This document shows positions 28,292-58,190 of a stretch of 64,000 nucleotides of DNA, piece after piece. The notes beneath the pieces are model-generated. The model saw only the letters and a program-made list of their open reading frames with translations. It ran no database searches and was not told the origin of the DNA. A program made the translations under genes and the position numbers. Numbering within the stretch: position 1 is the stretch's first letter; each line of letters begins with the position of its first letter. Location: positions 1-64,000 of the forward strand of contig CADCDA010000007.1 in assembly GCA_902800025.1 (NCBI GenBank), in the 5' to 3' direction. Source of the stretch: an uncultured Erysipelotrichaceae bacterium (GTDB taxonomy: Bacteria; Bacillota_I; Bacilli_A; RFN20; CAG-826).

Positions 28292-29560
28292 TTATAAAAA
28301 CCTCTTTATTATTAACTTTGTTATATCTTTGTCTTCATATTTATATATTGAAAAAATCTTGTTTCCCATATAGTTGATCGATGTTCCTAATGAGTAACAA
28401 TCTACTGAATCAATAATCATGAATCGGTCGTGGAACAAATCGTTATATTTCAATATGAAGTTCCCACCGAATTGTTTAATAAATATATCTATTTCTTCTT
28501 CTGATAGTTTTGACTTTGAACTTCCAATTACTGTTATATCAACATCAGTGTTTTTGCTTTTCAAAAACGTTAAGAGCTTATTATCACAATAAGGATCAAT
28601 AACGATGATTGATTCTTTTGCGGTTCTGATAATCGAAGATATGAATTCGTAAGCATCATAGTATTGCCCATTGAAGAACAGTTTTTCTTTAGGAGGTTCT
28701 TCAAATACTTGTTTTTCTACGACATCCATTCTATTTTTCAAATCGGAAATATCGTTTTCTAATTGGACAAAGTTTTCAGTCGTTACTGTCACACGAGTGT
28801 TATCAATTGCATATCCTTTTAATAAGTAACGTTTAAGAACAGACGACGCCCATCTTCTAAATTCAATGGCTCTTTTGCCTGATGTTCTATATCCAACGGC
28901 AAGGATCATATCAAGGTTATAATATTCAACAACCCTAGTTACTTTTCTATCTCCCTCGATTTGAACTTGTGCATTTTTTGCACATGTTGAAACAGGAATT
29001 AATTCCCCTTCCTCATATATGTTATCAATGTGTTTAATGATGACCGTTCTATCTTTGTCAAATAGCTCTGAAATCTGATTAACATTTAACCAAACTGTGT
29101 CTTCTTCTGGCGATATTTTAACATCAAGTTTTACATTTCCATTATTATATATAATAATGTCTTGTTTGTTATCTACCACTTCTTGTTTCAAATAATCATC
29201 TAGGAATTGTTTGAGCAATAAGCCTTTATCGGATCCGATTTTATCGCCTATAGCAAGCACAATATCTAGGCAATAATAGTTAATGGTTCTTGCTATTTTT
29301 CTATTTCCTTCGAGTTGAACTTGTCCACTTTTTGAAATAGTTGGACCATTTTTTGGACAAGTTGGACATTCTTCAAAAACAGCTGATTCTATTCTTTCGA
29401 GTTCAAGCTTAATGTACCTCGTTATTGTGGAATGGCTTTTACCATATAGGATACAAATATCCTTGTTTGATAACCAAAAAGTATTATCTTCTGGTGAATA
29501 ATTGATATCTAATCCAATGTCATCAGTTTTGTATTTTAGTCTTTGTAAGTCTTTAGTCAT
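28292..29560 (-). CDS. RhuM-RhuM-PLD fusion protein (copy 1)
   Basis: A 422-residue protein of unknown role. Residues 11-125 are a diverged RhuM-like domain, 143-255 a typical RhuM domain (TVWLNVNQISELF, EYYNLDMILAVGYR, EFRRWASSVLKRYLLKGYAID), 262-290 a probable coiled coil, and 290-422 a single-motif phospholipase-D-like domain with IIVIDPY and HDRFMIID (His377, Arg379, Asp384). RhuM proteins are DNA-binding-like and linked to mobile and virulence regions. The start at 29560 follows TGAGGAGG; an upstream ATG overlaps that site. The paralogue is at 50296. Both RhuM copies contain internal inverted repeats. Confidence 0.82.
   Translation of the reverse strand: MTKDLQRLKYKTDDIGLDINYSPEDNTFWLSNKDICILYGKSHSTITRYIKLELERIESAVFEECPTCPKNGPTISKSGQVQLEGNRKIARTINYYCLDIVLAIGDKIGSDKGLLLKQFLDDYLKQEVVDNKQDIIIYNNGNVKLDVKISPEEDTVWLNVNQISELFDKDRTVIIKHIDNIYEEGELIPVSTCAKNAQVQIEGDRKVTRVVEYYNLDMILAVGYRTSGKRAIEFRRWASSVLKRYLLKGYAIDNTRVTVTTENFVQLENDISDLKNRMDVVEKQVFEEPPKEKLFFNGQYYDAYEFISSIIRTAKESIIVIDPYCDNKLLTFLKSKNTDVDITVIGSSKSKLSEEEIDIFIKQFGGNFILKYNDLFHDRFMIIDSVDCYSLGTSINYMGNKIFSIYKYEDKDITKLIIKRFL
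28964..28988. repeat. Inverted repeat inside the second RhuM domain of copy 1
   Basis: Arms AACTTGTGCA (28964-28973) and TGCACATGTT (28979-28988) pair at 9 of 10 positions across a 5-base loop. They encode the residues TCAKNAQV between the helix-turn-helix part and the YYNLD motif. Confidence 0.8.
29318..29368. repeat. Inverted and direct repeats inside the first RhuM-like domain of copy 1
   Basis: Arms AACTTGTCCA (29318-29327) and TGGACAAGTT (29354-29363) pair perfectly over a 26-base loop. TTGGAC occurs three times (29341, 29353, 29362), as if the unit had been partly duplicated. The encoded stretch is enriched in Cys and Pro. Confidence 0.75.
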
Positions 29561-29566
29561 AAAAAA

Positions 29567-29588
29567 CCTCCTCATTTAATAAAGGAGT
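29567..29588 (-). promoter_or_regulatory. Ribosome site paired with an upstream anti-Shine-Dalgarno arm
   Basis: Read on the minus strand, CTCCT (29587-29583) can pair with AGGAG of the ribosome site (29572-29568) across a 10-base loop. The same arrangement with nearly identical sequence precedes the paralogue at 50296. Confidence 0.6.
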
Positions 29589-50295: not shown

Positions 50296-51561
50296 ATGAC
50301 CCAAACAATAAAATACAAAACAGAAGATATCGAACTAGACATCAATTACTCACCTGAAGATAAAACAGTGTGGTTAACCCAAAAACAAATTGCGACGTTA
50401 TTTGGTAAAGCGCGTTCCGCTATAATTTGGCATATCAAAAACATAATAACAGAGACTACCGATTCTGATGTTGAAACCATCAACACTACACCCCATCGAA
50501 GCGTTGACAAAATTGACACTTCCCCCCTTAGATGTGTCAAAAAACTTGACATACCTACCAATAAAATGATTAAGCATTATGACCTAGAAACAGTGCTTGA
50601 AATAGGTCGTAGAATAGGTTCTGATAGAGGCTTATTACTTAAGAATTTCGTTGATGATTATTTAAACCAAGAAGTAGTAGATAATAAGCAGGATATTATT
50701 ATGTATAATAATGGTAATATCAAATTAGATGTCAAAATATCTCCAGATGAAGACACTGTATGGCTTAATCAAGCTCAGATTGCAGAGCTATTTGAAACAG
50801 CAAGACAAAACATAACAATGCATATTAATAACATTTACGAAATAGGCGAATTAGAAATGACGTCAACTTGTAAGGATTTCTTACTAGTTCAACTTGAAGG
50901 AGGCCGAAAAGTTAATAGAAAAATTGCATATTATAACCTCGATATGATCATTTCATTAGGCTATAGAGTCAACACTTCTCGAGGTATCGAATTTAGAAGA
51001 TGGGCCACTAATGTATTAAAGAGATATTTATATAATGGATATGTAATTGATGAAGAACGAATTGCAATAACCAAAAGTGTAACTAATTTAGAAAGCGAAG
51101 TTGAAAGAATTAAAGAGCAAATAAAAGACATCAAAGAAAAGACATTCACTGAGCCAATAAAAGAGAAATTATTTCGTAACGGAGAGTTTTTTGATTCGAG
51201 AGAACTGCTTTCTTCTATTGTTGAGAACGCAAAAGAATCAATAGTTATTATCGACCCTTATTTTGATATTGTTAGTTTGTCGTATTTAAAAAACGTTTCG
51301 AAGTCAGTGCATATAAAAGTTGTTCGTTCTTTACGAGGCCATTTAAGCAAAGAAGATTTAAGAGCTTTTAGAAGACAGTATCGTGATATCTATGTGACAT
51401 TTGATGAGACGTTTCACGATAGATTTATCATAATAGATAAAAGAGATTGCTACTTACTTGGAACATCAACTAATGGATTGGGGAAAAGAACATCTGCTAT
51501 TATTCAGATTACAAACGAAAGAATCATCAATGATTTACTCGATATATTAAAAACTAAATAA
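50296..51561 (+). CDS. RhuM-RhuM-PLD fusion protein (copy 2)
   Basis: A 421-residue paralogue of the protein at 28292 with the same order: diverged RhuM-like domain (10-125), typical RhuM domain (143-255; TVWLNQAQIAELF, YYNLDMIISLGYR, EFRRWATNVLKRYLYNGY), coiled coil (260-285) and single-motif PLD-like domain (IVIIDPYFD, HDRFIIID with His374). Similarity is strongest in the stretch QEVVDNKQDII and the PLD part and weakest in the segments that contain inverted repeats. Role unknown; a DNA-binding nuclease or regulator of mobile-element origin is the best guess. The end overlaps the convergent gene by 8 bases. Confidence 0.82.
   Translation: MTQTIKYKTEDIELDINYSPEDKTVWLTQKQIATLFGKARSAIIWHIKNIITETTDSDVETINTTPHRSVDKIDTSPLRCVKKLDIPTNKMIKHYDLETVLEIGRRIGSDRGLLLKNFVDDYLNQEVVDNKQDIIMYNNGNIKLDVKISPDEDTVWLNQAQIAELFETARQNITMHINNIYEIGELEMTSTCKDFLLVQLEGGRKVNRKIAYYNLDMIISLGYRVNTSRGIEFRRWATNVLKRYLYNGYVIDEERIAITKSVTNLESEVERIKEQIKDIKEKTFTEPIKEKLFRNGEFFDSRELLSSIVENAKESIVIIDPYFDIVSLSYLKNVSKSVHIKVVRSLRGHLSKEDLRAFRRQYRDIYVTFDETFHDRFIIIDKRDCYLLGTSTNGLGKRTSAIIQITNERIINDLLDILKTK
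50504..50551. repeat. Inverted and direct repeats inside the first RhuM-like domain of copy 2
   Basis: TGTCAA (50535-50540) pairs with TTGACA (50546-50551) over a 5-base loop. Further TTGACA copies lie at 50504-50509 and 50513-50518. The position in the protein matches the repeat region of copy 1's first domain. Confidence 0.7.
50865..50889. repeat. Inverted repeat inside the second RhuM domain of copy 2
   Basis: Arms AACTTGTAAG (50865-50874) and CTTACTAGTT (50880-50889) pair at 9 of 10 positions with a 5-base loop. The layout and position equal those of the repeat at 28964-28988, but the inner three bases differ on both arms and still pair. Confidence 0.8.
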
Positions 51562-58021: not shown

Positions 58022-58190
58022 TCAAATATATATGCCCTGTTCAGTAAAGGCGTATGGAAGCTTTCTAGTTCCTCCCCATCTTGATATCACATTTTGTGAC
58101 ATCATGATTGTTTTTAGTTCGTCTTTGGTAATTCGGAACATAAAATCGTCTGGGGCAGCTCGTCTATTTTTTGATAAAACATTTTAGACA
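58022..58190 (-). pseudogene. Truncated ORF6N-domain gene remnant
   Basis: On the minus strand one frame reads APDDFMFRITKDELKTIMMS, then QNVISRWGG, then RKLPYAFTEQGIYI and a TGA at 58024-58022. This is the core of an ORF6N domain (consensus RFPxDFMF, SQ, WGG, LPYAFTEQG). A stop lies in the same frame just upstream, and an overlapping frame gives KIDELPQ, as if frameshifted. Domain start and the C-terminal part are missing, so it is a dead fragment. It contains its own inverted repeat at 58083-58103. Confidence 0.65.
58083..58103. repeat. Inverted repeat inside the ORF6N remnant
   Basis: Arms GATATCACA (58083-58091) and TGTGACATC (58095-58103) pair at 8 of 9 positions over 3 bases, at the SQNVIS codons. 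It resembles in style the internal palindromes of the RhuM genes. Upstream (58180-58220) three degenerate TTGTCCAAAA units follow one another on the minus strand. Confidence 0.6.

Follow-up and report, generated by a model that had tools for sequence, protein, structure and literature searches.

Genes of the RhuM family carry, within the codons of their own DNA-binding domain, a palindrome whose arms differ from gene to gene but are kept as a pair, and the inner bases of these arms follow the recognition-helix residues of the protein that the same gene encodes. Both the conservation at the DNA level and the helix code hold across the family. The best overall explanation, to which we assign a probability of roughly 0.7, is that a winged helix-turn-helix RhuM dimer binds this intragenic palindrome and represses its own gene as a roadblock to elongation. 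Judged from the sequence comparisons, it is very likely that the protein binds its own gene directly.

Results

Two rhuM genes carry a palindrome at homologous codons

The window, by which we mean the whole 64-kb stretch of DNA that was analysed, contains two rhuM genes with the following features.

50296..51561, + strand: rhuM gene, 421 aa, with two tandem RhuM domains and a C-terminal PLD-like domain
51163..51558, + strand: its C-terminal PLD-like region, with an HDR...D variant of the HKD motif
50803..50844, + strand: codons of its predicted recognition helix, residues 170-183 (AlphaFold model, pLDDT 91-96 in the region; mutual information)
50865..50889, + strand: intragenic palindrome AACTTGTAAG-GATTT-CTTACTAGTT, putative binding site of the gene's own product, with family-wide covariation
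50869..50898, + strand: codons of the predicted first wing strand, residues 192-201 (AlphaFold model), overlapping the palindrome
50529..50557, + strand: degenerate inverted repeat TAGATGTGTCAA-AAAAC-TTGACATACCTA in the first RhuM domain, with a 5-nt spacer, 83% complementary
28292..29575, - strand: paralogous rhuM gene, 427 aa, of the same architecture and 49% identity
28964..28988, - strand: intragenic palindrome of the paralogue, AACATGTGCA-AAAAA-TGCACAAGTT on the coding strand
29009..29050, - strand: codons of the paralogue's predicted recognition helix (DKDR-TVIIKH), by alignment with the model of the 50296 gene
29318..29363, - strand: first-domain palindrome with perfect 10-bp arms, AACTTGTCCA / TGGACAAGTT, 26 nt apart

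The palindromes at 50865 and 28964 lie in the second RhuM domain, have 10-base arms around a 5-base centre, and occupy homologous stretches of nine codons, STCKDFLLV in the 50296 gene and STCAKNAQV in the paralogue. In the former the palindrome runs from the last base of codon 190 through codon 198. The initial annotation had described them as lying at the same codons of both paralogues; this placement holds, but one arm pair is mismatched in each, leaving 9 of 10 paired. Six palindromes in the window, these two rhuM sites among them, have a 5-base spacer and reach 9/10 pairs or better. A single palindrome of such quality is unremarkable, and what exceeds chance is the family-wide pattern. In the host genome, matches to the AAG-type site of the 50296 gene with 0-1 mismatch occur only in that gene and in one rhuM paralogue, which is located on another contig and encodes a 57% identical protein; the GCA-type site, within two mismatches, is found only in the 28292 gene. 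The centre of the first-domain palindrome at 29318 exceeds the usual 5 nt by 21 nt (two helical turns, seven codons) and was apparently made by tandem duplication.

Both window genes pass the curated cut-off for PF13310 (Virulence_RhuM), with 101.5 and 103.5 bits against 33.7. They cover only profile positions 1-94 and 1-88 of the full 252-position domain, its C-terminal half being replaced by the PLD-like region; full-length members occur among their relatives, and the window genes are therefore partial-domain members. In the profile search the 50296 gene matched PF13310 in two stretches (5.9e-29), the NCBIfam model VPA1262_N (7.7e-16) and, weakly, PLDc_2 (0.01). The window proteins also match the PADLOC candidate defence model PDC-S05 (E = 1.8e-94 and 5.2e-95), and matches to PDC-S05 and PDC-S23 are shared by the window rhuM proteins and three further loci (L158, L206, and L268). 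Across the family the C-termini vary (PLD-like, Fic, and others), and the genes are located on satellite phages, phages, and plasmids and in type I restriction-modification (R-M) operons. On a Methylocystis plasmid, for instance, a rhuM gene is flanked by hsdM and an hsdS gene.

The arms are conserved as a pair across the family

We examined two independent sets of homologues. The order-level set comprised 143 RhuM domains from the host's order, with 102 distinct segments. The global set comprised about 150 RhuM domains, drawn from 80 viral contigs and from 80 genome contigs that span many phyla, with a Methanosarcinales archaeon among them. Both sets are subsets, the global one with 80 of 587 genome matches taken; where 154 global domains are counted, the window gene is one of them, as reference. 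The viral homologues were found with an alignment as query, whereas the single window protein as query matched no viral sequence.

The site is kept in 130 of the 143 order-level and 149 of the 154 global domains; the other 13 and 5, respectively, have no clean site in the standard register. All five inner pairs are matched in 110 and 133 domains. In the first domains of tandem RhuM proteins the site is often degenerate. When codons were shuffled synonymously within each gene, which preserves its protein and codon usage, observed pairing was 8.46 against 6.28 of 10 in the order-level set (z = 20) and 9.35 against 6.55 in the global set (z = 27). For the tabulated sites the register was picked by maximum pairing, a mild bias toward the hypothesis. 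Every other offset in a sliding control along the domain stayed within |z| 7. Pairing among homologues is thus far above the codon-shuffled null, not merely at the level of codon-matched random sequence.

The signal can also be read from third codon positions. At the three strongly constrained arm positions, pairs that join two wobble bases were matched in 83/84, 80/84, and 82/84 genes of the first set and in 111/111, 109/111, and 104/111 of the second, against 24-43 expected from codon usage in both sets. These counts were taken from standard-register genes with at least 3 of the 5 inner pairs, a mild pre-selection, but the answer is the same without it: over all 102 distinct order-level segments, 7.73 of 10 bases were paired against 5.61 for codon-matched sequences encoding the same peptide (SD of the mean 0.10).

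The two sets together contain 39 distinct inner half-sites, so that what is conserved is the match between the arms, not their sequence. This extends to the whole family the compensating arm change that had first been noticed between the two window paralogues. Each half-site consists of 3 outer bp, 2 loosely constrained bp, and 5 inner bp, and the two flank a 5-bp AT-rich centre. AT-rich centres are common in operators. The Salmonella rhuM gene, from which the family takes its name, has a 10/10 site that is consistent with the helix code described below. The median distance from the first possible start codon to the site is 206 nt.

Outside the genes, the flanks of 127 global loci showed no excess of site copies at 0 mismatches, and the 250 bp upstream contained 0 copies at 0-1 mismatch. 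Without an upstream copy, classic promoter autoregulation is not indicated, and the proposed target is the gene body. One locus, L208, has a second copy of a RhuM site, AACTATTGCA-AATTT-TGCAACAGTT, about 2466 nt after the rhuM start and directly upstream of another RhuM gene of different specificity. This copy is probably a gene remnant and possibly a regulatory link.

Arm bases follow the recognition helix

In the AlphaFold model of the 50296-gene protein, which has high confidence in this region, helix 159-166, a turn, and helix 170-183 are followed by strands 192-201 and 204-213. According to this model, the RhuM DNA-binding fold is a winged helix-turn-helix in which residue 170 is the first of the predicted recognition helix and the codons of the palindrome specify the first wing strand. 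The helix codons and the site codons fall within about 90 bp. A PDB sequence search with the RhuM domain gave no match, and hence no solved relative by sequence; Foldseek with the whole low-pTM model returned nothing at E < 0.001 and only weak resemblances to TrmBL2 and PLD.

The inner five base pairs change together with recognition-helix residues 168-175 of the protein that the gene encodes. By mutual information across 276 domains, the six positions most informative about them were 175, 171, 169, 172, 168, and 170, all of which belong to the recognition-helix region (residues are numbered as in the window protein encoded at 50296..51561, bases from the palindrome centre). Two positions read almost as a table. 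At residue 170, Arg goes with G at base 5 in 103 of 104 domains, Lys with T in 78/81, Gln with A in 18/18, Val with T in 22/24, and Ser with C in 6/6; at residue 175, Arg goes with C at base 2 (69/69), Glu with G (56/56), Leu with A (41/41), and Met with A (27/27). Whole half-sites behave likewise: GTGCA is found with RDR-[ST]V-I-SRH proteins, TTGCA with RDK proteins, and ATGCA with an RDQ protein, while GTCGG and TTCGG accompany TSR..EH and TSK..EH proteins, respectively. The same residue-base rule is repeated in several arm backgrounds (GCA, AAG, CGG, and TCC). For the window genes, R170 of the 50296 gene predicts G at base 5 and its M175 predicts AAG, and in the 28292 paralogue the helix R predicts G and K predicts GCA.

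Shared ancestry does not account for this association. When the remainder of the domain was used to build a tree, parsimony required at least 57 changes of base 5, and the tree-aware mutual information was 1.33 bits, compared with 0.12 +/- 0.03 for bases simulated independently on the same tree. Phylogenetically independent Lys/Arg pairs had T/G in 18 of 21 cases. When one set was used for training and the other for testing, residue 170 predicted base 5 in 92-93%, whereas the closest relative, as judged from the remainder of the domain, predicted it in 33-38%. Silent codons obey the code as well: Ala193 is encoded by GCG in 7/7 genes that have Arg172 and by GCA in nearly all the rest, and Lys193 by AAG or AAA depending on residue 175. 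The suggestion that the palindrome is a self-binding site whose specificity drifts alongside the protein is, as far as sequence comparison goes, strongly supported by this covariation.

In the global set, the outer triplet (AAC/GTT or AGT/ACT) tracks the loop type after the first wing strand (EGxRxVxR or DGK) and residue 201, which may reflect a second, wing-mediated contact or simple linkage. We also considered orthogonality of paralogues within a genome and rejected it: identical sites occurred in 6 of 51 pairs, or 11.8% against 10.6% expected, showing no avoidance.

A proposed roadblock within the gene

We propose that the RhuM winged helix-turn-helix, acting as a dimer to judge from the symmetry of the DNA alone, would bind the palindrome inside its own coding gene, at a site that is formed by the codons of the first wing strand, a short way downstream of those of the recognition helix. 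Arms and helix co-evolve, so that specificity could drift while the match is kept. By analogy with known regulators, the bound dimer probably halts RNA polymerase some 200 nt into the gene, which would provide promoter-independent negative feedback on a mobile, effector-carrying gene (with its PLD-like, Fic, or other C-terminus) and on downstream genes of the operon; this step is appreciably less certain than binding itself. Such a design would need no promoter of its own and would survive transfer, and it would suit genes of phages, satellite phages, plasmids, and type I R-M operons. On the Methylocystis plasmid, a block in rhuM would also limit the downstream gene. The closeness of helix codons and site would, in addition, hold reader and address together through recombination.

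The most serious competitor accepts self-binding and gives it another role: it could silence or exclude an incoming copy of the same rhuM, mark or partition the element in the manner of ParB at its parS sites, or target the C-terminal nuclease-like or Fic domain. The mobile locations of the family, its varied C-termini, the matches to PDC-S05 and PDC-S23, and the presence of parS-359 within parB in Bacillus subtilis (PMC4442127) all fit such a role. We nonetheless regard it as unlikely, since paralogues in one genome do not avoid shared sites and the flanks of the 127 global loci did not yield a second class of target site.

Other sources of the pairing

The remaining alternatives dispense with self-binding. 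The helix and the wing could co-evolve at the protein level, with the palindrome a by-product of the genetic code, or helix and wing codons could be transferred jointly by recombination. Thr and Val are swapped at the two ends of the wing segment, which points in this direction, as does the short distance between the two sets of codons. Pairing far above the synonymous-codon nulls, however, clearest at wobble-wobble pairs, and the recurrence of the residue-base rule in separate arm backgrounds leave this account very improbable. The option of a recombination site, also raised in the initial annotation, drew no support; evidence for recombination at the palindrome was neither found nor needed.

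A hairpin in the mRNA, kept by selection for translation control or stability, has the right stem-loop geometry on paper, with a 5-nt loop, and selection on RNA structure had been among the first suggestions. We now consider it most improbable. G.T and A.C mismatches occur at similar frequency (36/26 and 19/26), whereas G.U pairs would be acceptable in an RNA stem; the arm contains two pairs that are nearly unconstrained in the order-level set; the folding energy of the window segment is ordinary (z = 0.17); and an RNA stem would not track helix-turn-helix residues. An Rfam search found no family matching the window segment. With no Rfam match, no G-U tolerance, and no unusual stability, a structured RNA element was rejected, and the absence of RNA signatures indicates duplex DNA as the target.

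Template-switch correction of quasi-palindromes is an existing mechanism that equalises arms without selection and could supply symmetric changes, but it is blind to the recognition helix, and codes that link helix residues to bases and to silent codons require selection on the protein-DNA match, so as an explanation of the whole pattern it has next to no probability. Because the arms follow the helix, neither RNA structure nor a purely mutational process suffices, and binding of the duplex site by the RhuM protein is the reading we carry forward.

Relation to known regulators

Binding within a regulator's own reading frame is already known. C.Kpn2I, the controller of the Kpn2I restriction-modification system, has its site within its own reading frame; the bound protein obstructs the elongating polymerase and lowers its own mRNA (PMC6237814). 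The rhuM genes likewise have a palindromic site inside the coding region of the proposed regulator. The two differ in that C.Kpn2I is an unrelated, single type II R-M controller for which the effect was shown experimentally, whereas RhuM binding and roadblock are predictions; RhuM, in turn, is a family across bacteria, archaea, and viruses in which site and helix co-evolve and the site is encoded in the DNA-binding domain. For ParB/Spo0J of Bacillus subtilis, parS-359 is located within parB, and it is this location only that the source documents (PMC4442127). Here too the target of a DNA-binding protein lies inside its own gene, but RhuM sites are confined to rhuM genes in the host genome. LacI is autoregulated by a transcriptional roadblock at O3 (PMC3711431) and so limits its own transcript by blocking elongation, as proposed for RhuM; a control scan of LacI-family coding DNA, however, found no conserved palindrome (best z = 5.0, 3.9/10 pairs). 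In open-access PMC text we found no description of the intragenic RhuM site, although paywalled or unpublished prior work is possible, and no family-wide, self-encoded sites that co-evolve with their reader. It is this last feature that appears new with respect to the open-access literature.

Genes of the RhuM family are common but have no established molecular function, and their annotation as "virulence protein" is historical. For hundreds of sequenced RhuM proteins the palindrome supplies a predicted DNA target, legible in the gene itself, which makes the family testable, and it explains a hypervariable-looking stretch of these proteins, whose residues appear to be set largely by the DNA site. 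The family further offers a large natural set of matched helix/half-site pairs for learning DNA-recognition codes, and site and reader together form a compact, self-contained regulatory part.

Self-encoded palindromes in related mobile-element families

We extended the scan to ORF6N (loci L315-L366 and L417-L439), KilA-N (L367-L391 and L440-L489), and Bro-N domains (L399-L416 and L490-L524). Pairing of the best centre reached 8.44 of 10 against 3.84 after codon shuffling in 50 ORF6N domains (z = 22.7), 8.58 against 5.88 in 52 KilA-N domains (z = 19.7), and 8.18 against 5.59 in 38 DinD-like Bro-N domains (z = 16.1), with the best other centres at z = 7-9. Ant-type Bro-N showed no convincing palindrome (z = 4.6, from a large scan of 7 genes). 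In each of the three families with a palindrome, helix-like residues go with arm bases: at one position in ORF6N, Gln is found with A in 17/18 and Glu with G in 13/13, and in KilA-N, Arg with G in 11/11, Ala with T in 11/11, and Lys with G in 8/8, counts that come from partly related sequences and, like the association as a whole, are not tree-corrected. This extension suggests that mobile-element regulators have a general habit of encoding their own binding sites.

A broader and rather doubtful reading is that RhuM, ORF6N, KilA-N, and DinD-like Bro-N are self-addressed genes that form a system of self-repression and mutual exclusion among mobile elements, in which specificities would diversify under conflict and fused effectors would act when recognition changes. 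If so, address and reader would travel together, and resident copies of the same specificity would recognise any incoming gene of their group.

The window itself holds the remnant of an ORF6N gene.

58022-58141, - strand: ORF6N gene remnant, with a recognisable, partly decayed palindrome, ATCTTGATATCACA-TTT-TGTGACATCATGAT, at 58078-58108

Elsewhere, ORF6N genes often adjoin partial ORF6N copies, as in G304 contig 8 (177996, 178333), G013 contig 64 (68098-69029), and G298 contig 6 (18432, 18812), as if the site-bearing domain had been repeatedly duplicated or replaced.
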